This document shows, in pieces, positions 53,636 through 64,000 of a stretch of DNA of 64,000 bases; the first letter of the stretch is position 1, and each line of letters opens with the position of its first letter. The translations under genes were made by a program, and so were the position numbers. The notes beneath the pieces are model-generated. The model worked only from the letters and a program-made list of their open reading frames with translations, had not been told where the DNA came from and did not search any database. Source of the stretch: Shewanella chilikensis (lineage in GTDB: Bacteria; Pseudomonadota; Gammaproteobacteria; Enterobacterales; Shewanellaceae); contig NZ_NIJM01000004.1 of the NCBI RefSeq assembly GCF_002836945.1, positions 1 to 64,000 on the forward strand. Reading direction: 5' to 3'.

Positions 53636-55048
53636 ATGACCTACTCGCCCCTTCACCTCAGTGGCCAACAGACTCCGGATGCCGTCGCCTTGGTAGAGGG
53701 CGGTATCAGCCATAGTTATCAGGCAGTAAGCCGGCAAGTATTGGCGCTCGGCGCTAAGCTTCGAGCCTTGGGGTTGCAGCGCGGGGATAAACTGGCCTGT
53801 GTGGCCGCTAACTGCCGCGAGCTGATGTTGTTGTATTGGGCTTGTTTGGATCTGGGGCTGCTCTTTTGCCCGCTGTCACCCAAGTTTCCGGATAGTCAGC
53901 TCCAGGAGCTGCTTGAACGTTTACATATTCGCTTTATCTGGTGTCCGGATAATGCCAGGAATAAGCTTTGGCAAACGCGGGATATCACCCGAGTGCAGGC
54001 GGATTTTGCCATTCTCGAATCGAATTGTATCCCAGCCGAGATAGCCACTGTCTCGGCCGATACGCCGCTCAATATTATTCTTACCTCGGGCTCCAGTGGC
54101 TGCCCCAAGGCCGCAGTCCACTGCCTTAACAACCATATCGCCAACGCCAATGGTAGTCGGCAGTTGATTCCTTTGGCGAGTGGTGATGCCTGGTTACTCT
54201 CGCTGCCGCTGTTCCATATCGGTGGCCTGGCAATCCTCAATCGCTGCGCCCTGGCGGCCGCAGCCGTGGTGCTGCCGGACAATAAGCTGACTATGGCGGC
54301 GCAGTTGAGGCGTGATGCCATCACTCATCTCTCGCTGGTGGCCACCCAGTTGCAACGCCTTTTGGACGACAGCCCGGAAAGCCTTATGGGAGTGAAGTGC
54401 CTGCTACTCGGCGGCGGCGCCATAGGCCAAGGCCTGCTGGACAGGCTATCCCCCTTGAAGGTGAAAGCCTTTACCAGTTACGGCATGACAGAGATGGGCT
54501 CGCAGATCACCACGGGAATGGCCCGCAGCGATGGCAGCAGTGGCCGCCTGTTACCCGGGCGCGAGCTCAAAATAGAACAGGGAGTTATCTGGGTCAGGGG
54601 CGAGACCCTGTTTATGGGTTACCTGCAGTCGGATGGCAGCATAGTTAAAGAGACCCAAGACGGTTGGTTTTGCACCAAGGACAAAGGCTTCTGGAGTCAG
54701 GATGGGCTACTGCATATTCAGGGGCGGGTCGACAATATGTTTATCTGCGGCGGCGAGAATATTCAACCGGAAGAGGTGGAAGCGGCGCTGAAACAGCACC
54801 CTGCCATCCTGGATGCCATCGTCTTTGGTGAAGATAACCCTGAGTTTGGCTTACTGCCGGCCGCCATTTTGCGTTATCAAGGCTCACAGGCGCCGAGCGA
54901 AGCCGAACTGACCGCCTTCCTGGCAGACAAGCTGGCTCGCTTTAAGCGCCCGAGACACTATTATCCCTGGCCGCAACAGGTTGCCGAGGGGCTCAAAGTG
55001 CAGCGCCAGCAGCTTATTGCGGCGCTAAATTCAACCATGAAGCCTTAA
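53636..55048 (+). CDS. menE: o-Succinylbenzoate-CoA ligase
   Basis: Activates o-succinylbenzoate with ATP and CoA. The 470-residue ANL-superfamily enzyme has the P-loop motif LTSGSSGCPKAAVH (near residue 150), SLPLFHIGGLAILN, the adenylate motif SYGMTEMGSQIT, the hinge region GRVDNMFICGGENIQPEEVE and a C-terminal Lys near the end (AEGLKVQRQQL). It follows menC with a 53-bp gap. Its last 18 bp overlap the end of the convergent REC-EAL gene. Confidence 0.93.
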   Translation: MTYSPLHLSGQQTPDAVALVEGGISHSYQAVSRQVLALGAKLRALGLQRGDKLACVAANCRELMLLYWACLDLGLLFCPLSPKFPDSQLQELLERLHIRFIWCPDNARNKLWQTRDITRVQADFAILESNCIPAEIATVSADTPLNIILTSGSSGCPKAAVHCLNNHIANANGSRQLIPLASGDAWLLSLPLFHIGGLAILNRCALAAAAVVLPDNKLTMAAQLRRDAITHLSLVATQLQRLLDDSPESLMGVKCLLLGGGAIGQGLLDRLSPLKVKAFTSYGMTEMGSQITTGMARSDGSSGRLLPGRELKIEQGVIWVRGETLFMGYLQSDGSIVKETQDGWFCTKDKGFWSQDGLLHIQGRVDNMFICGGENIQPEEVEAALKQHPAILDAIVFGEDNPEFGLLPAAILRYQGSQAPSEAELTAFLADKLARFKRPRHYYPWPQQVAEGLKVQRQQLIAALNSTMKP

Positions 55049-56245
55049 AAGTTCATTTTGTAAGAAGTGTTTACAAAAGTCAGCCTCGCTCAATGGATGA
55101 GAAAAGTAAAACCCCTGGCCCAGATTGCAACCGAGGTTTTGCAATAGCTTGAGCTGGGCAGCCGTTTCAATACCTTCGATAACCAACTGCATGTCGAGCG
55201 AGTCAGATAATGCTATCACACTGGATATCGCAGCTTTGCATCTGGGCTCAGTATCCAGACCGGCCACAAAACAAGCATCCAACTTCATTTGCGAAAAAGG
55301 AAGTTCACACAGGCGAGCCAAAGATGAATAAGCAGCACCAAAGTCATCTATCGCCAATTCGCATCCTAGCATGCGTAAACGGATTAAATTTTCCATATTG
55401 AGGGCCGGCGCCAATATAAGGCCTGATTCCGTTATCTCTATAGTGACCAGTTTCGGTGGAAGTTTATAATCCCGGATCAATTTGGAGATTTGATATACGA
55501 GCTCAGTGGAGTTTAATTGGGAAATGTCCAGGTTGTAGGCGAGTGATAAGCGATAGTTCTGTTCCAACAATCGCTTTTGCAATTTAATCCCCTGACGGAA
55601 TAATTGGAGAAACATCTCATCCAGCAAGCCATAACGAATGAGAGGTTCGATAAACAGATTAGGATGTAACAACCCGAACACGGGGTGCTGCCAACGCACC
55701 AAGACTTCCGCTCCTTCTATTTGTAAATCCGTGACACTGAACTTGGGTTGGTAGAAACCAACGAACTGATGTTCAGTGACCGCTTCCTTAAAATCTCTGA
55801 AATTCAAAGAGAACCAATTTGGAAGCAGTTCTGGTTCAGGTGATACCGTCTGCGGTTCGTTCAGTTCACGATAACATTCGATCATAGCGCTCAAGTTTTC
55901 AATCGTCGGTGATTTGGCTAAATCACCAAGATACTGAAACCCCAACAGTTTAACCATCTGGGAGACAGCCCGGCGCAGATCTTTGTCGACATCACTGTAA
56001 AGGGCTACCCCACGGATCTTGAACCTGGCTCTAGCCTGGCGCAAAAAAGACAAACCATCGGTTCCAGCCAACATCAAGTCGCAAATTACGATATCGACTT
56101 CCCTATGCTGCTGTAGCCAGGAAAAAGCGGCTGTCGCGCAGCCAAAGCTGAAGACTTCCACACAAGTTAACGACTTGAGGTTGTGCTCCAGCACAGTGCG
56201 TTGAAAAGGATGATCCTCAAGCACCAACACCTTGCATTTCTTCAT
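55031..56245 (-). CDS. Response regulator with c-di-GMP phosphodiesterase output (REC-EAL), RocR-like
   Basis: A 404-residue two-domain protein. The receiver domain (residues 1-125) has acidic residues LEDHPFQRTVL and phospho-acceptor Asp in IVICDLMLAGTDGLS. The EAL domain (about 155-400) keeps the catalytic set: Glu of AEVLVRW (EVL instead of EAL), Asn of YNLDISQLN, EITESGL, AIDDFGAAYSSL, Lys of MKLDACF, EGIETAAQ and GQGFYFSHPL. It should hydrolyse c-di-GMP when phosphorylated or not, as in RocR of P. aeruginosa and VieA of V. cholerae; it lacks the VieA HTH. It is divergent from the NarL-type regulator and hybrid kinase. The kinase's HPt domain could phosphorylate both. Confidence 0.87.
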   Translation of the reverse strand: MKKCKVLVLEDHPFQRTVLEHNLKSLTCVEVFSFGCATAAFSWLQQHREVDIVICDLMLAGTDGLSFLRQARARFKIRGVALYSDVDKDLRRAVSQMVKLLGFQYLGDLAKSPTIENLSAMIECYRELNEPQTVSPEPELLPNWFSLNFRDFKEAVTEHQFVGFYQPKFSVTDLQIEGAEVLVRWQHPVFGLLHPNLFIEPLIRYGLLDEMFLQLFRQGIKLQKRLLEQNYRLSLAYNLDISQLNSTELVYQISKLIRDYKLPPKLVTIEITESGLILAPALNMENLIRLRMLGCELAIDDFGAAYSSLARLCELPFSQMKLDACFVAGLDTEPRCKAAISSVIALSDSLDMQLVIEGIETAAQLKLLQNLGCNLGQGFYFSHPLSEADFCKHFLQNELLRLHG

Positions 56246-56554
56246 TATTTAAGCCAAAAAAACTGATATGGATATAAATAGCAGTTAGCATCATTTATCA
56301 GTAAAAATAACTAAGAATTCTTTTATTAAGTTTATATAAAATCCTATATAGCTAAATTTACGCCAACACACCGTAAATGGTCTTTCTCACACTATTCCTA
56401 ATTTATTTTGAAATAATATAAGTCCGCTAATATTATAATAAATGCAAAACCCAACAGAAAAGGCTGAAAGTTCGGTAGGAAACATCCTACTTACATATGA
56501 AAATTATTCTGTAACAATTGATTTGGAATGATTAGAGGGACAGAAGTTTATAAT
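56246..56554. promoter_or_regulatory. Divergent promoter region of REC-EAL and NarL-type regulator genes
   Basis: 309 bp without a gene, very A+T-rich. It contains the inverted repeat at 56475-56490, a second possible half-site TTCCTA at 56395-56400, TCCTATA at about 56343, and GAAAAGGCTGAAAGTTC (56457-56473), which has a near copy at 48635. No clear sigma-70 boxes could be fixed among the A+T-rich hexamers. Confidence 0.5.
56475..56490 (+). promoter_or_regulatory. Candidate operator GTAGGA-AACA-TCCTAC
   Basis: A perfect 6-bp inverted repeat with a 4-nt spacer, 65 bp upstream of the NarL-type regulator start. Its core TAGGA-N4-TCCTA recurs upstream of the fimbrial operon (61076-61089). The geometry (two 5-7-bp half-sites in a 14-bp box) fits NarL/FixJ-type dimers such as RcsB and BvgA, whose half-sites also contain TTCCTA or TCCTA. 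It is proposed as the autoregulatory site of the adjacent regulator. Confidence 0.55.
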
Positions 56555-57178
56555 ATGAAGAACATTATTGTTGTCGATGACCATCCAGTAGTGATTATGG
56601 CTATAAAAATCATACTCGAGCAAAATGGCTTTCATGTCACAGCCACAACAGATAATGGAGTAGATGCGCTAAAACTCATAAGAGAGCACCAACCTGATGC
56701 CGTTGTTCTGGATATAGGCATACCACAACTAGATGGTCTTGAGGTTATTAACCGATTGAATAGTTTGGATTTACCACCAAAGATACTGGTACTGACGGCA
56801 CAGCCTTCTGAATATTTTGTCACCCGCTGCATACAGGCCGGAGCCTCTGGTTTTGTCTCTAAACAAGAGGATCTAACAGAGGTTCTGGGAGCGCTGAGAG
56901 CAGTATTATCCGGATATTCATACTTTCCAAATAACGCCTTCATCCATCATAAACAAAATAAACAACTGCCGGAGTCAGATAAATTGGCACAACTATCTGG
57001 TCGAGAAATGATGGTACTTCAACAGTTGTCACACGGCCTATCCAATAAAGAGATTGCCGATCGCATGTTACTCAGCAATAAAACCATAAGTACATATAAG
57101 ACTCGTTTACTGGAAAAGCTTAACGCCCGTACCCTGGTCGATCTTATCGAAATATCCAAGAGAAACCATATCATATGA
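56555..57178 (+). CDS. NarL/FixJ-type response regulator, EvgA/RocA-like
   Basis: A 207-residue regulator. The receiver domain (NIIVVDDHPVVIMAIKIILE, Asp in AVVLDIGIPQLDG, Lys in SGFVSKQEDL) is followed by a LuxR-type DNA-binding domain (LSGREMMVLQQLSHGLSNKE, NKTISTYKTRLLEKLNARTL). It resembles EvgA, BvgA and RocA1, the partners of BvgS-type kinases. ATG 56555 begins at the receiver; the frame extends nine codons upstream. It overlaps the kinase gene by 4 bp (ATGA). Its candidate binding site occurs in its own and the fimbrial promoter. Confidence 0.88.
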   Translation: MKNIIVVDDHPVVIMAIKIILEQNGFHVTATTDNGVDALKLIREHQPDAVVLDIGIPQLDGLEVINRLNSLDLPPKILVLTAQPSEYFVTRCIQAGASGFVSKQEDLTEVLGALRAVLSGYSYFPNNAFIHHKQNKQLPESDKLAQLSGREMMVLQQLSHGLSNKEIADRMLLSNKTISTYKTRLLEKLNARTLVDLIEISKRNHII

Positions 57179-60100
57179 AAAAAGCCCCTCTTATCCAGGC
57201 GCTCTACTTAATATTGATTTTTTTATCTTTAGTTTCACAGCAGGTCAATGGGACAGAGTTGAATACTCCAGGCATTTCTGGCCATGCCGGCATGAGTAAA
57301 ATTAGGATAATCCTGACCGATGAGCAGTGGCAATGGTTACAACAACAGCAAAGTATCCGAGTAGGAGTTGTTACTCCGGATAACCCACCATTCGATATGA
57401 CCATGGATGGTAACAGTGACTACTATGAGGGCTTGAGTGCCGATTACCTGCAGCTTTTGTCTGAAGCCCTTAAGCTCAAAATAGAACTACGTTTATTCAA
57501 TACCAAAGAGGACGCTATCTTAGCTATCAAGGCCGGTAAACTGGATCTGCTAACCGGGGCCTCCGGTTACGAAGCATCCCAAGGGTTGCTGCTAAGTCAG
57601 GCTTATGTCGATAATCAAGCTGTATTATGCACTTCAGAAAAACTAGCTGCAGAGCAGACTCCAACCAATATTGCTATGCCTTATGATTATCTGCCGGAGG
57701 TCGACCTTGCCCCCCTTCTCCCCAAAGCCCAAATCACTCGATATCCCTCCAAACTAAAAACAGTAGCCGCAGCCGTGTTCGGTAAAGCTGATGCCGTAAT
57801 CATGGATCTGTTCTCAGCCAACTACATAGTTAACAACTATTTTGCCAAGAAGTTGCGGATAACGAAATTTTTGCCCGTTGAGCCCCAAGGCTTAAGCTTT
57901 GCCTTAAGTAATGATAAACAGCAACTTAAAGAAATAATAGATGAAGCATTGAAGCAACTCCCGGAAAGTGAACATTGGGCCATCAAAAAACGTTGGAGTG
58001 GAGGCGGCCTGAATCTGTCCAGAAAAAAGCTCGATCTGGATCTGAGCGAAACGGAACTGGCTTGGCTAAAGCAACATCAACCGATAAGAATTGCGGCCAA
58101 TAAGTTCAATGCACCTATGACCTATTTTGATCAGAATGACAGGTTACACGGTTACGCGGCTGACGTTTTGGAGATCATCAAGCTTTATAGCGGAATTGAT
58201 ACCGTCATTATCAAGACACAAAATTTCCATGAAATTGAGCAGCGTCTGCAAGATAAAAGTGCCGATCTAGCTTTGTTATCTCCTTCGGATAAGCGCCAAA
58301 AAGAACTGATATTCACTAAAGAATTTTCTAATGCGCCTTTTGTTTTTATCTCCCAAAAAGGTCTTCACTTCAATCAGGAAAAAACCAACTTAAAAATCGC
58401 CCTCCCAGTAGCACATATCTCCTCGGAAATACTGCCTAAAGTGTTACCACAAATAGAGGTGGTAGAAGTAAGCAACTACATGGATGCCCTGGAAGCCACC
58501 TTAAAAGGTAAAGTAGATGCCACTATAGCTCCACTTGGAATCGCAGACTACTATGTCAATCACTATTATGGGCACAAACTTGCAATACAAGGCATTATTG
58601 ACGAGTTACCACCGGCAACTGCGGCCTTCGCCACGAGTAAGAGCAACCCTCAATTAATCAGTATTCTCAATAAGGTTCTGGCCATAATCCCTGCCGATGA
58701 ATTGCAATCTATAGGGAATAGATGGCGCAGCAATGCCGTTCCCGGACAAGAGACTTGGCGCGATTACAAATATACTATTTATTCAATTACTGTTGCTGCA
58801 ATACTATTGATTACTGCATCTTTAATCTGGGCCTGGTTTACCCGCAGCCACTATATAAAACGGCTTATGGTTAAAAAGAAACTACAACAACAACTTATAT
58901 TTATGCAAGAGGTGATCGACAGTATTCCCCACCCTATCTATGTCCGTAATACAGAACGCCAACTAATTCTCTGCAACCAAAGTTATTTACAATTCTTCCA
59001 AGTATCAGCTCATGACTTGATAAATAGAACTGTGTTGGAACACAGTGATAGGCTAAGTGATGTTCACTTGATAGATCAAAATTATACCCAAGCTATTAGT
59101 GAAAACAGAGCATGTTACGAAGACAGGCGCATATATTTGGATGGAAAACTTATTGATGTTTACCACTGGTTCCGACCTTATAAAAACGAACAAAATCAGA
59201 TCCAGGGTATTATAGGTGGATGGATAGATGTCAGCGACCGCGTCGAATTAATGCAACAGTTAAACTTGGCCAAGGAACAGGCAGAGAAAGCCAGTGTCGC
59301 CAAGACTCAATTTTTGGCAACCATGAGCCATGAAATACGTACACCTATGAACGCGATTATAGGCTTGCTGGAGCTATCGATGAAACGATCTCAGAAAAAT
59401 CTGTATGATTTTAAGTCTATTCGTGTTGCTTATGATTCAGCCAAAGGACTACTGGAACTCATAGGCGATATTCTCGATATAGTTAGAATTGAGGCAGGAC
59501 AGCTAAGCTTGAACCCAGTACAGACGGAGCTGAAGCAAACTCTGGATTCTGTAATTCGTATCTTCGAAGGTATAGCGATTCAAAAAGGCTTACAATTAAT
59601 ACTTGAGATGGATCCTGAACTACCTAAGTATGCACTGTTAGATCCTCTAAGGGTTAAGCAGATTTTATCCAACCTAATTGGTAATGCCATTAAATTCACC
59701 GACCAAGGTAATGTTTGCCTCTCAGCGCTTAAATCGCAAAATTCCAAAGGTCAAACCGAGCTGGTTTTCAAAGTCGCTGATACTGGAACAGGTATGCCAA
59801 TAGAGGAACAACAAGACTTATTTAAACCTTTCGTTCAGGTTCAAAATGGTGCCCATAATAAAGGAGGGACAGGTCTGGGGCTCCCCATATGTCGCTCCCT
59901 GTGTGAAATGATGGGCGGTTCAATTAACTTGGTCAGCGAACCGGGTCAGGGGACTTGTATCAATATCCGAATACCTTTACAAGTTACCAATGAAGCTGCA
60001 GCTGAAGAAAGCCCAACATTCCCTTCCTCAGATGTAATCCCTACGGCACAAGTGCAGCATGTGTTGATAGTGGATGATCATCCGGCCAACAGGCTGCTGT

Positions 60101-60801
60101 TGTCACAGCAACTTAAATATCTGGGGCACAGCATTGATGAAGCGAACGATGGTCAGGAAGCTCTCCATCTCTTCAACCTACACCCCTATCGAATAGTCAT
60201 TACCGATTGCAATATGCCGGAGATGGATGGTTATGAGCTTAGCCGCAAGCTAAGACAATTGGAACAAAGCCGTAATCTTTCACCGGCGATTATCTTAGGT
60301 TACACAGCCAATGCCCAATTGGAAGTCAAAAAAGCCTGTATCTCTGCAGGCATGAATGATTGCCTGTTTAAACCTATCAGTTTAGCTGAGTTGAAAAAAG
60401 CCTTGGATAACCTCCACCTGGTGCTCGAGCAAGAACCGCTCAAGCCTAGCTTCCTGCCAAGCACTTTGGACAAATTAACTGGCGGAAACCTGGAGCTAAC
60501 AGAGCAGTTATTGCTGGAACTGTTAAATGCCAATGAGGCAGATTTAATAAAATTACAAACGGCACTGAATAAGGGGGATGAAGATGATAGCAAAAGCGTA
60601 GCCCACAAAATTAAAGGTGCGGCAAAGATTATCTCAGCTACCTCCATCGTCAAACATTGCGAGCAGTTAGAACATGCGGAAACCATAGAGGAAGCCCGTG
60701 TAACTTTGGTTTCGCTCAGTGATTCATTGGAACACCTTGCTCGAGATATAAAAGCATATCTAAACTCAGAGAAAAGAGAACCAATGGATTTTATGCTCTA
60801 A
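57175..60801 (+). CDS. BvgS/EvgS-type hybrid sensor kinase
   Basis: A 1208-residue phosphorelay kinase. An N-terminal signal or anchor precedes two periplasmic substrate-binding (Venus flytrap) domains: about residues 55-280 (RVGVVTPDNPPFDMTMDG) and 290-520 (PIRIAANKFNAPMTYFDQND). A membrane helix follows near 533-556, then PAS (575-700), HisKA with His719 (ATMSHEIRTPMNAIIG), ATPase (LIGNAIKFT, DTGTGMP, GGTGLGLPIC), a receiver with Asp1011 (TDCNMPEMDGYEL) and HPt with His1144 (VAHKIKGAAKI). It thus carries all four phosphorelay sites plus a PAS. The ligand of the flytraps is unknown. Candidate phosphate acceptors are the NarL-type regulator and the REC-EAL protein. Confidence 0.9.
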   Translation: MKKAPLIQALYLILIFLSLVSQQVNGTELNTPGISGHAGMSKIRIILTDEQWQWLQQQQSIRVGVVTPDNPPFDMTMDGNSDYYEGLSADYLQLLSEALKLKIELRLFNTKEDAILAIKAGKLDLLTGASGYEASQGLLLSQAYVDNQAVLCTSEKLAAEQTPTNIAMPYDYLPEVDLAPLLPKAQITRYPSKLKTVAAAVFGKADAVIMDLFSANYIVNNYFAKKLRITKFLPVEPQGLSFALSNDKQQLKEIIDEALKQLPESEHWAIKKRWSGGGLNLSRKKLDLDLSETELAWLKQHQPIRIAANKFNAPMTYFDQNDRLHGYAADVLEIIKLYSGIDTVIIKTQNFHEIEQRLQDKSADLALLSPSDKRQKELIFTKEFSNAPFVFISQKGLHFNQEKTNLKIALPVAHISSEILPKVLPQIEVVEVSNYMDALEATLKGKVDATIAPLGIADYYVNHYYGHKLAIQGIIDELPPATAAFATSKSNPQLISILNKVLAIIPADELQSIGNRWRSNAVPGQETWRDYKYTIYSITVAAILLITASLIWAWFTRSHYIKRLMVKKKLQQQLIFMQEVIDSIPHPIYVRNTERQLILCNQSYLQFFQVSAHDLINRTVLEHSDRLSDVHLIDQNYTQAISENRACYEDRRIYLDGKLIDVYHWFRPYKNEQNQIQGIIGGWIDVSDRVELMQQLNLAKEQAEKASVAKTQFLATMSHEIRTPMNAIIGLLELSMKRSQKNLYDFKSIRVAYDSAKGLLELIGDILDIVRIEAGQLSLNPVQTELKQTLDSVIRIFEGIAIQKGLQLILEMDPELPKYALLDPLRVKQILSNLIGNAIKFTDQGNVCLSALKSQNSKGQTELVFKVADTGTGMPIEEQQDLFKPFVQVQNGAHNKGGTGLGLPICRSLCEMMGGSINLVSEPGQGTCINIRIPLQVTNEAAAEESPTFPSSDVIPTAQVQHVLIVDDHPANRLLLSQQLKYLGHSIDEANDGQEALHLFNLHPYRIVITDCNMPEMDGYELSRKLRQLEQSRNLSPAIILGYTANAQLEVKKACISAGMNDCLFKPISLAELKKALDNLHLVLEQEPLKPSFLPSTLDKLTGGNLELTEQLLLELLNANEADLIKLQTALNKGDEDDSKSVAHKIKGAAKIISATSIVKHCEQLEHAETIEEARVTLVSLSDSLEHLARDIKAYLNSEKREPMDFML

Positions 60802-61306
60802 AACAGACTTAAAACTTTAAAATTATTGAAATGGCACAATACTATTGATTGAGTTAAGTAAAAGCTATTGTGATTAAATAATAAGCTGTCACTGACTTAT
60901 ATTGTGACATTCTCTGTATCAACAACTTATCAAGCTTGCTTTTTACAGTACGCCAGCATAGCATAAGGATTAAATACAGACATTTTAAATCGCACCCAAG
61001 ACAATATAATAATAACCAAACACTCAAAAAAGTGTCCCTAAAACATAAAGCCCAGTTCAACAACAACAAACCCTGTAGGACTTTTCCTATAGGGTTAATG
61101 TTATTTCCGATCTACCCCCCTCCCCCTTTCATATTAGCAACAATTAATTGTAGTATCACCTTCGAAGTGGTTCGAGCTTAGCTTGAATAATATAGAGCTC
61201 AAAATTTTATTTTGAGATTTTAGGTTTTACCTAGGTTTCTAAATTCTGCAAGTATACAAGCGCATACCACCTATTCTTTAAATCTTAAGGATTAATAGGT
61301 AAACAT
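60802..61306. promoter_or_regulatory. Long upstream region of the fimbrial operon
   Basis: 505 bp without a gene, very A+T-rich apart from a C-rich patch near 61118-61127. It holds the inverted repeat at 61071-61094, a palindrome CAATTAATTG (61141-61150), and a stem CTCAAAAT/ATTTTGAG with a 3-nt loop (61198-61216) followed by a T-rich stretch that might act as a weak attenuator. The pilin ribosome-binding site is AGG at 61296-61299. I saw no pair of inverted repeats like the E. coli fim switch. Confidence 0.5.
61071..61094 (+). promoter_or_regulatory. Candidate operator CCCTGTAGGA-CTTT-TCCTATAGGG
   Basis: An inverted repeat of 10 bp per arm (one G-T pairing) with a 4-nt spacer. Its centre TAGGA-N4-TCCTA is the same as in the site upstream of the NarL-type regulator (56476-56489). 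It lies about 210 bp before the pilin start codon, consistent with an upstream activator site. Confidence 0.55.
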
Positions 61307-61864
61307 ATGAAGAAAATAATTGTATTAGCGGTATCTTTAGCTGGTTATGCTTCTTTGGGAACTGCCAATGCAGCATCAACAGGTCAAATTCAATTCGTTG
61401 GTGAAATCACTGGAGCCACTTGTAATGCTACGGTTAATGGCACTAGCAACGCCACTGTAACACTGCCAACTGTCAGTAATAGCCAACTTCAATCGGCTGG
61501 TAATACCGCCGGGAAAACCAGCTTTACCATTGAGTTAAGTGAGTGTACTGCACTAGATTCTATGACTCAGGGTTCTGCTTTCTTCGAGTCGGGCTCGGCA
61601 GTCAATATAGCAACTGGTCGTCTTAAAAATACAGCGCCAACTAATGCCGCAAGTAACGTGACATTGCAGTTACGTGACGCTTCATCTGATGCAGCAATCA
61701 AAGTTGGCGACTCGACTCAAACAACATCAAACACTTATGTCAACTTGCCGACCACTGCCGGAGGTAAGGCTCAACTGCCTTACACTGTAGAATATTATGC
61801 TGAGAATGCAGTAACTGCTGGTAAAGTTAATTCATCAGTAGTTTATTCAATCCAATATAAGTAA
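61307..61864 (+). CDS. Type 1-like fimbrial major subunit
   Basis: A 185-residue pilin of the chaperone-usher class. The signal peptide (MKKIIVLAVSLAGYASLGTA, cleavage after ANA) is followed by the donor strand, then the typical GQIQFVGEITGATCNATVNG with first Cys, second Cys in LSECTALDSM about 40 residues later, and a C-terminal beta strand SVVYSIQYK with penultimate Tyr. Low-charge, Thr/Ser/Ala-rich composition fits a surface-exposed fimbrial shaft subunit. It is first in the operon and followed by a G/C-rich hairpin and the chaperone. Confidence 0.87.
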   Translation: MKKIIVLAVSLAGYASLGTANAASTGQIQFVGEITGATCNATVNGTSNATVTLPTVSNSQLQSAGNTAGKTSFTIELSECTALDSMTQGSAFFESGSAVNIATGRLKNTAPTNAASNVTLQLRDASSDAAIKVGDSTQTTSNTYVNLPTTAGGKAQLPYTVEYYAENAVTAGKVNSSVVYSIQYK

Positions 61865-61889
61865 ACCTTTTATTAAATAGAGATATAGA

Positions 61890-61907
61890 GGGGGGAGCTC
61901 CCCCCCC
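61890..61907 (+). repeat. G6-AGCT-C8 inverted repeat between pilin and chaperone
   Basis: A run of six G (61890-61895), AGCT, then eight C (61900-61907). The G6/C6 arms can form a very stable hairpin in mRNA, in the 65-bp gap after the pilin stop codon. There is no T-run after it, so it is not a classical terminator. It would favour pilin over chaperone and usher by transcript processing or partial termination. Confidence 0.6.
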
Positions 61908-61929
61908 TATCATCAAAAAGGACAACACT

Positions 61930-62634
61930 GTGTTTCGCTTCTTTTACCTTATTCTAATTATAGTTTCATTAATATTTACTATAGGAGTTGCACCACAAGC
62001 ATTAGCCAGTGTGGTCATTACTGGCACTCGTGTAATCTACCCTTCTGATGCGAATGAGGTGAGTGTAAAACTGGATAACAGAGGAAATAATCCAGTGTTG
62101 GTTCAAAGTTGGATTGACAGCGGTGAAGTTGATACAAAGCCTGACTTTATCAATGTTCCATTTATCATTACTCCTCCAGTTAATAGAATTGATCCAGATA
62201 ATGGACAAAATCTAAGAATACGTTACACAGGAGATATTCTTCCAACTGATAGGGAGAGTTTATTTTGGCTAAACGTACTTGAAATCCCCGCCAAGCCAAG
62301 TTCCGAAAGCAATGAAAATTATATACAAATGGCATTTAGAACAAGAATAAAGCTGTTTTACCGACCAATTTCATTAGAGTTGGATGTTAAGGACTCTATG
62401 GAAAAGATTAGTTTCAACCGACTTGACAATGACACTGTAAGAGTTGATAACCCAACCCCTTTCCATATTTCCTTTGCAAAAATTGTATCCAATAAAAAAG
62501 AAATAGATGGCGAGATGGTATCACCATATTCATCTTTGGATTTCCAATTACCTAATCAAGCTGGAAATAAAATTGAAGCAACTTATATCAATGATTATGG
62601 CGCCATGAAACTTTTGGAATATTTAGTTAAATAA
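61930..62634 (+). CDS. Periplasmic fimbrial chaperone (PapD-like)
   Basis: A 234-residue two-domain immunoglobulin-like chaperone. A signal peptide (residues 1-27, ending ALA) is followed by SVVITGTRVIYPSDANEVSV with the conserved Arg of TRVIYP, a G1-type donor strand region (MAFRTRIKLFYRP with the conserved Lys), and a second domain. It would cap pilin subunits and deliver them to the usher. It starts at GTG 61930, which has AAGGA upstream; no in-frame ATG is near. It sits between the pilin and usher genes. Confidence 0.85.
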   Translation: MFRFFYLILIIVSLIFTIGVAPQALASVVITGTRVIYPSDANEVSVKLDNRGNNPVLVQSWIDSGEVDTKPDFINVPFIITPPVNRIDPDNGQNLRIRYTGDILPTDRESLFWLNVLEIPAKPSSESNENYIQMAFRTRIKLFYRPISLELDVKDSMEKISFNRLDNDTVRVDNPTPFHISFAKIVSNKKEIDGEMVSPYSSLDFQLPNQAGNKIEATYINDYGAMKLLEYLVK

Positions 62635-62694
62635 TTATCAGGCTAATGTGGACAACAATATTAGCATTAGCCAAATAACTAAATCGAGGTCAAA

Positions 62695-64000
62695 TTGAAA
62701 AAGTTATCAATAAGTAATTTCATTACACTGTTAGTCGTTAGCTATACACTATCATTTGGTTGTAGGATAACTCTTGCTGAGACCTCCACATCTGTTGGCG
62801 CATCATCTACTAGCGTTACCTTTGATTCATCTCTATTGAATATGGTTGGATCAGATAGCTTCGATTTAAGCTATTTTCAAGATGGCGCATCTGACCTTCC
62901 TGGTAATTATAAATCTGCAGTATATATCAATAAGATATTACTTGGGTATTACAATATTGAATTCAAGGTAAACAATAATAAAAAAGTATACCCATGCCTG
63001 AGTCGAAACTTGATAAAAGATATTCAACTCAATCCAGATGAATTACCCATATCCATTGATAAAAACATCGACTCATGCATTGACTTGAAAAGTTATATCA
63101 CCACGGCAAACGTTAACTATGATAGCGGAACTCAACACCTTGATATTATTCTTCCTCAAGCGTATCTGTACAATAAAGCAAGGGGAGAAGTTAGTCCTGA
63201 ACTATGGGATGAAGGCATCAACTCCGGTATTTTTGGATACAATATCAATGGTTACAGCAGCCGTTCCCATGGTGAAGATTACAACTCTTTATTTGCAAAC
63301 TTTAGAACAGGAATCAATATTGGGGCATGGCAACTAAGACATAATGGTAACTACTCTTCTGTTGAAGGGGGAAGAGAGAACTATAACGCTATCAATACAT
63401 ATATACAACGTGATATCCCTTCATGGAGAAGTAGTGCTTTAGTCGGACAATCAAATACTTCTGGGCAAGTCTTTGATACCTTACCTTTTGTTGGCCTTCA
63501 TTTGGCAAGCGATAGAAGAATGTTACCTGAGTCTCAGCAAGGCTACGCACCTCAAATAAGGGGGGTAGCGAAAACGAACGCACGAGTTTTTGTCCGCCAA
63601 AATGATCAAATCATTTACGAAACTAATGTAACTCCAGGTGAATTTCTGATTAACGATCTTTATCCTACCGGATTTGGTGGGGATCTTGTTGTTACTGTTA
63701 GAGAATCCGATGCCAGTGAACACTCATTTAAAGTACCTTATGCTTCTGTAACTCAGTTGTTAAGGCCGGGTACAATACATTATGAATTTACAGCAGGTAA
63801 AATTCATAGTGATAACTTATTAAGTGATCCTGATATTTATCAGGCAACTTATCAATATGGTGTTAATAATGCCTTCACTAGTTATGGTGGATTTCAGGCC
63901 AGTGACGATTATTACGCCGTGCAACTTGGTGGCGCAATTGGTTCTTCTATCGGTGCATTTGCTATGGATATTACCCACGCAAGAACCCGCTTAGGAGACG
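62695..64000 (+). CDS. Outer-membrane fimbrial usher, 5' part (gene runs off the window)
   Basis: The frame is open from TTG 62695 to the window end (435 codons visible; ushers are usually 800-900). A signal peptide (MKKLSISNFITLLVVSYTLS) precedes the N-terminal chaperone-binding domain: VTFDSSLLNMVGSDSFDLSY followed by FQDGASDLPGNY, with a Cys pair in YPCLSRN and DSCIDL. The barrel and plug then follow (GQVFDTLPFVGLHLASDRRM, LPESQQGYAPQIRGVAKTNA, TPGEFLINDLYPTGFGGDLV), all strong usher signatures. GAGGT lies five bases before the TTG; the next in-frame Met is after the N-terminal domain has begun. The C-terminus is not visible. Confidence 0.85.
   Translation, partial: MKKLSISNFITLLVVSYTLSFGCRITLAETSTSVGASSTSVTFDSSLLNMVGSDSFDLSYFQDGASDLPGNYKSAVYINKILLGYYNIEFKVNNNKKVYPCLSRNLIKDIQLNPDELPISIDKNIDSCIDLKSYITTANVNYDSGTQHLDIILPQAYLYNKARGEVSPELWDEGINSGIFGYNINGYSSRSHGEDYNSLFANFRTGINIGAWQLRHNGNYSSVEGGRENYNAINTYIQRDIPSWRSSALVGQSNTSGQVFDTLPFVGLHLASDRRMLPESQQGYAPQIRGVAKTNARVFVRQNDQIIYETNVTPGEFLINDLYPTGFGGDLVVTVRESDASEHSFKVPYASVTQLLRPGTIHYEFTAGKIHSDNLLSDPDIYQATYQYGVNNAFTSYGGFQASDDYYAVQLGGAIGSSIGAFAMDITHARTRLGD

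Follow-up and report, generated by a model that had tools for sequence, protein, structure and literature searches.

The final part of a 64,000-nucleotide window of Shewanella chilikensis DNA (the whole stretch analyzed, which is the start of contig NZ_NIJM01000004.1, termed C59, of a 4.4-Mb genome) carries genes for a response regulator with an EAL domain, a NarL/FixJ-type regulator and a BvgS-type kinase, here named rocR, rocA and rocS, beside a chaperone-usher fimbrial operon. This locus probably encodes a branched phosphorelay of the Roc/Pvr type together with the fimbria that it targets. As judged from sequence, it belongs to the known Pseudomonas Roc/Pvr family, for which linked regulator-fimbria loci have already been described; what is added here is an intact single-kinase version in Shewanella, a specific predicted operator common to three unrelated fimbriae, evidence of in-place fimbria exchange and a candidate extra protein of 112 amino acids (aa). 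The features of the locus are given below, with domains from Pfam.

55031-56245, minus strand: rocR-like REC-EAL protein of 404 aa, predicted cyclic di-GMP (c-di-GMP) phosphodiesterase (EAL 6e-55, Response_reg 9e-11)
56246-56527, no strand: rocR-rocA divergent control region, containing the operator at 56476-56489
56476-56489, no strand: predicted RocA operator TAGGAAACATCCTA, 68 bp before the conserved rocA ATG at 56558; second-best match of the motif in the window
56528-57178, plus strand: rocA-like NarL/FixJ regulator of the EvgA/FimZ type (Response_reg 3e-28, GerE 4e-18)
57175-60801, plus strand: rocS-like BvgS/EvgS-type unorthodox kinase of 1208 aa (flytrap-flytrap-transmembrane segment-PAS-HisKA-HATPase-REC-HPt)
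61076-61089, no strand: predicted RocA operator TAGGACTTTTCCTA, with 217 bp between operator and pilin ATG
61097-61110, no strand: weak second half-palindrome, 21 bp downstream of the pilin operator, 6/10 matches
61307-61864, plus strand: major pilin, FimA family (PF16970 1e-20)
61930-62634, plus strand: periplasmic chaperone, PapD family (PF00345 4e-45)
62695-64000, plus strand: outer membrane usher (PF00577, PapC_N), the full gene being 62695-65229 of the contig
65286-66392 of the contig, plus strand, outside the window: FimH/MrkD-like adhesin (pilin domain PF00419 6e-11, weak MrkDrd receptor domain 1e-5)
66502-66840 of the contig (L009:16503-16841), minus strand, outside the window: 112-aa protein

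All of the genes named in a previous sequence-only reading of this DNA were found where it had placed them, and six were re-read from the window and assigned by Pfam. That reading had the fimbria following directly after the kinase; the gene order stood, but rocS and the pilin gene are separated by a 505-bp gap containing its own predicted operator.

Orthologues of RocR were detected in 9 of the 129 genomes of the genus, the remaining matches being distant (about 30%), and a close match to the sensor part of RocS was present in eight of these nine. A complete rocSAR set was found in eight Shewanella genomes, downstream of menE in every case and with rocR divergent from rocA-rocS, as in the window; in G126, a contig break falls between rocR and rocA. 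In the ninth rocR-bearing genome (G042), one contig (L053) stops within rocR and the gene for the 112-aa protein starts another (L112), the middle of the module (rocA, rocS and any fimbria) being unassembled. A chaperone-usher operon adjoined rocSAR in all eight complete cases. Ushers are scarce in the genus (16 of 129 genomes), yet each of the eight rocSAR genomes carried exactly one, linked to rocSAR, indicating that the linkage of fimbria and regulators is not due to chance. The same trio was found beside a chaperone-usher operon in Vibrio cincinnatiensis (identities of 51, 65 and 42%). The survey thus disposed of the concern, raised in the sequence-only reading, that fimbria and regulators might be chance neighbors in one strain. 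A sample of the order contained one further genome with an orthologue, outside the genus, and a class-wide sample of 369 genomes added none at 1e-60, which leaves Shewanella plus one Vibrio as the basis of the linkage test. No kinase besides rocS was found beside rocR in any relative.

A shared palindrome connected the regulators to the fimbria. The input to a motif sampler was restricted to other genomes, all with a fimbria different from that of the window (five pilin and seven rocA promoters, 12 in all, none from the window); the sampler returned a motif with 16.2 bits of information, compared with 10.6-11.1 bits for shuffled input. The two best matches of this motif in the window were in the pilin promoter (61074) and, second, in the rocA promoter (56474). 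The strict palindrome TAGGANNNNTCCTA was present at only three places in the genome, two of which were the rocA and pilin promoters; the third (C36:2653) falls within a coding frame and is probably due to chance. Dinucleotide shuffles contained the strict palindrome in 5/20000 cases for the rocR-rocA gap and in 13/20000 for the rocS-pilin gap. When six genomes totaling about 27 Mb were combined, GTAGGANNNNTCYTA was present at 16 distinct places, of which 11 were within the rocSAR locus. In the 21-kb locus of V. cincinnatiensis, all occurrences of TARGANNNNTCYTA were either upstream of the pilin gene or, in two cases, in the rocR-rocA gap. These same promoters had been viewed before the pattern was formulated; independent evidence comes from the motif that was found blind, from the window's having a different fimbria and from the Vibrio, which was not used in finding the motif. 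The predicted operator precedes the pilins of three unrelated fimbriae at rocSAR modules, a distribution suggesting that any fimbria docked beside the module is very probably under the control of RocA. Its occurrence in both the rocA and the pilin promoters also lends support to the earlier proposal that the fimbria is the probable target of the regulators.

In Bordetella, the strong BvgA site, TAAGAAATTTCCTA, is an inverted heptad, a form also taken by the RocA palindrome, and binding of BvgA dimers recurs at intervals of 22 bp (PMC7250471). This spacing is also shared, as a second site with 7-8/10 matches was present at exactly +22 in four relatives with a five-gene fimbrial operon, while the phasing is weak in the window. 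Use of a 16-base operator with one mismatch for regulon prediction was abandoned, as matches were no more numerous than with a reversed-pattern control, and a literature search on the EvgA box found nothing. A C6-T-C5 tract was observed at 61115-61126 of the window, downstream of the pilin operator and ahead of the pilin gene. In Bordetella fim promoters, C tracts in the vicinity of BvgA sites vary in length.

The proteins of the proposed relay were compared with known homologues. RocR matched P. aeruginosa RocR (3sy8) over its full length (E 7e-94, 390 residues) and the NCBIfam PvrR model at 250 bits, matches that uphold the Roc analogy drawn in the sequence-only reading; as the score is below the equivalog cut-off of 580 bits, the protein is classed by sequence as a homologue of PvrR rather than PvrR itself. 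The EAL catalytic set is complete (E180, N238, E270, D300, D301, K321, D323, E357, E360 and Q377), with E180 situated in an EVL spelled as in P. aeruginosa RocR, and the receiver retains its Asp and Lys. Three Shewanella genomes (L054, L055 and L056) encode REC-EAL proteins of another family, only distantly related to RocR (about 30% identity); hybrid kinases are nearby in two of the three, and fimbrial genes were not matched at these loci. RocA was closest to EvgA and FimZ, giving E 4e-42 with EvgA structures and its best NCBIfam scores with the EvgA and FimZ models. Alignment places the true start of RocA probably about 10 codons downstream, at the ATG at 56558. RocS contains two SBP_bac_3 domains followed by PAS, HisKA, HATPase, Response_reg and Hpt domains, its hydrophobic segments being a signal peptide and approximately residues 533-557, and it matched the BvgS periplasmic structure 4q0c (E 9e-68) and the NCBIfam EvgS model (544 bits). 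Within RocS, sequence identity peaked in HisKA and the receiver; the N-terminal, PAS, first flytrap and HPt regions had the lowest values. The phosphosites are D56 of RocR, D62 of RocA (numbered in the listed reading) and H719, D1011 and H1144 of RocS.

In the proposed mechanism, the periplasmic flytraps of RocS would respond to a signal, and phosphate would pass from H719 to D1011 and to H1144 of the HPt domain and then to the two receivers of RocA and RocR. Phosphorylated RocA would bind the palindrome TARGA-N4-TCYTA before rocA, leading to autoregulation, and that before the pilin gene, where it would be expected to turn on rather than repress the chaperone-usher operon. Phosphorylated RocR would degrade c-di-GMP and, hence, may oppose or tune the sessile output. 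In P. aeruginosa, RocA1 activates cupC, RocR represses cupC and the RocS HPt domains interact with both receivers (PMC3083521). The constancy of the rocR/rocA/rocS trio in eight Shewanella and one Vibrio supports the design of one kinase and two outputs that the sequence-only reading had put forward.

Several points weigh against this scheme. The pilin operator of the window is 217 bp from the ATG, compared with roughly 94-115 bp in the Shewanella relatives, and so either the layout of this promoter differs or the transcript may have a long leader. Such a distance would be compatible with RocA acting on nothing but its own operon and genes elsewhere, far from the locus, with the neighboring fimbria under other control. 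This is very improbable, however, as the operator stands before the pilins of three unrelated fimbriae and is nearly absent from the rest of these genomes, and as the linkage extends to every complete Shewanella case and a Vibrio. Loop 6 of RocR reads DDFGAAYSS, compared with DDFGAGYSS in P. aeruginosa RocR; this is the single departure, and the Ala is invariant across the seven full-length Shewanella orthologues aligned. Since this Ala replaces a conserved Gly, full RocR phosphodiesterase activity is not certain. In addition, PvrR of P. aeruginosa PA14 acts without its phospho-acceptor, and an interaction of PvrS with PvrR was not found (PMC3842833). The EAL arm, hence, need not be driven by the kinase, and we regard this as the least certain step of the mechanism. 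These findings would suit a RocR that is not phosphorylated by RocS, being either an independent or constitutive phosphodiesterase or catalytically weak, in which case the scheme of one kinase and two outputs would fail. We consider this unlikely, given that the receiver Asp and Lys are retained, that rocS is the sole kinase beside rocR in every relative and that P. aeruginosa RocR interacts with the HPt domains of RocS1 and RocS2 (PMC3083521).

The fimbria of the window genome differs from that of its relatives at the same locus. Seven Shewanella genomes have a CupD-like operon facing the regulators and consisting of pilin, chaperone, usher, adhesin and second chaperone genes, whereas the window genome has four genes (pilin, chaperone, usher and adhesin) with the same orientation as rocS, its usher sharing just 32-38% identity with those of the seven relatives. 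A third type of fimbria was found in V. cincinnatiensis, on the rocR side. Relative to the near relative G005, identity was 87% for rocR and rocA, 65% for rocS and 71% for the 112-aa protein but only 32-35% for the usher. As rocR, rocA and the gene for the 112-aa protein stay close to those of G005 while the usher diverges, these comparisons indicate that the fimbria was exchanged in place and the regulators kept, the flanks being conserved and the center changed. The sequence-only reading had not recognized the fimbria as a replacement of the type found in the relatives. DNA comparison of the rocS-pilin gap of the window detected no remnant of the older five-gene fimbria. The nearest relative of the window fimbria within the genus was in G083 (usher identity of 40-42%), a genome without roc genes and without the operator.

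The surroundings of the module were also informative. The module has menDHCE upstream and a fabR-like gene beyond the gene for the 112-aa protein. In five Shewanella genomes without the module, menE is beside rpoH, with a small gene or a transposase between them in some cases, and in five module genomes rpoH comes directly after the gene for the 112-aa protein; the block therefore behaves like a segment inserted between menE and rpoH. Such an insertion, together with the presence of the trio at another position in V. cincinnatiensis, would accord with fimbria and regulators having arrived as one mobile unit without any exchange, the window genome having obtained a different unit. This appears quite unlikely in view of the comparison with G005, in which, at the same menE position, the regulators (87% for rocR and rocA) and the 112-aa gene product (71%) are close and the usher (32-35%) is not. 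It is tentatively suggested, as a serious possibility that is as yet short of probable, that rocSAR and its operator form a docking module beside which unrelated chaperone-usher operons swap in and out. Each operon would respond to the same signal because it already has the RocA palindrome or gains it, whereas the regulators would stay put, as would the 112-aa protein, with its possible operator, as an additional working part. Retention of the regulators while fimbriae change would provide a concrete case of adhesin rewiring in evolution. In S. decolorationis S12 (G022; L047/L113), the module usher is in pieces on two contigs, splitting the five-gene operon; one piece is beside a transposase-like open reading frame and has an internal stop, and this fimbria looks interrupted.

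The sequence-only reading had presented the linkage of regulators and fimbria as its novel point, which was too strong a claim, as precedents exist in cupD-rcsCB-pvrSR (PMC2696094, PMC3842833) and in rocA3/rocR3 beside cupB (PMC12051241). The cupD locus, on the PAPI-1 island of PA14, likewise has a REC-EAL protein, a NarL-type activator and an unorthodox kinase beside a pilin-chaperone-usher-adhesin-chaperone operon, and this operon runs opposite to the regulators, the same kind of layout as in the five-gene Shewanella relatives. It has a second kinase, PvrS, whereas the Shewanella locus has one. The window shares with the CupD type the adjacency of regulators and chaperone-usher operon but departs from it in having four fimbrial genes, oriented in the same direction as the regulators, and one kinase. 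The Roc1 system of P. aeruginosa (RocS1-RocA1-RocR) has the same three proteins, one kinase and two regulators, with RocR homologous over its full length, but cupB and cupC lie apart from roc1, in contrast to the linked fimbria of Shewanella. Three properties expected of the Roc/Pvr family are present in the window, namely, a REC-EAL protein with the catalytic set, a NarL-type regulator within the locus and a BvgS-like kinase with receiver and HPt domains; a further one, control of chaperone-usher fimbriae, is suggested by the operator and the linkage. In roc3, rocA3 and rocR3 are beside cupB, as rocA and rocR are beside the fimbrial operon in the window, but the kinase is absent and RocR3 is without one catalytic residue; loss of an ancestral kinase gene (rocS3) has been proposed (PMC12051241). 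The arrangement proposed for that ancestor, with its kinase, is seen intact in the Shewanella window.

Bordetella BvgASR similarly consists of a BvgS-type kinase, BvgA and an EAL protein, BvgR, encoded downstream of bvgS, and the BvgA promoters have the same type of palindrome as the RocA motif (PMC7250471, PMC11537037). BvgR has, however, lost 12 of 13 conserved EAL residues, whereas the catalytic set of the window RocR is intact. BvgAS is a global virulence regulator, unlike the system of the window. In Bordetella, fha and fim genes are also located near bvgAS. The kinase and EAL response regulator are also matched in V. cholerae VieSAB, but the designation "Vie-like" given in the sequence-only reading did not hold. 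VieA has an additional C-terminal DNA-binding domain (helix-turn-helix), whereas in the window the EAL match reaches residue 384 and the protein consists of REC and EAL only. A literature search, with most subscription journals outside its coverage, found no description of the module in Shewanella. As a compact single-kinase Roc/Pvr circuit outside Pseudomonas, forming a self-contained block with one usher per genome and very few operator copies, the locus would be a clean system for asking how one phosphorelay apportions phosphate when its two recipients are a fimbrial activator and a c-di-GMP phosphodiesterase.

The 112-aa protein has no relative by sequence in Pfam, NCBIfam or PDB. Its gene was present in 8 of the 129 genomes of the genus, all of them rocR bearing (Fisher 6e-12, a value that ignores relatedness), and is retained at the module despite the change of fimbria. 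Weaker operator-like sites were detected before this gene in the window genome (contig about 66918, 78 bp upstream) and in four relatives. These associations suggest that the protein is probably an additional part of the module. A gene for another small protein (109-112 aa), probably secreted, was observed between the five-gene operon and the gene for the 112-aa protein (L045:19552-19881, with equivalents in G063, G075 and G076), and the strict palindrome is present upstream of it. A catalase-peroxidase-like gene was also noted near the module in G005 and V. cincinnatiensis (L067 6625-8814 and L079 1215-3446), which may be a coincidence.

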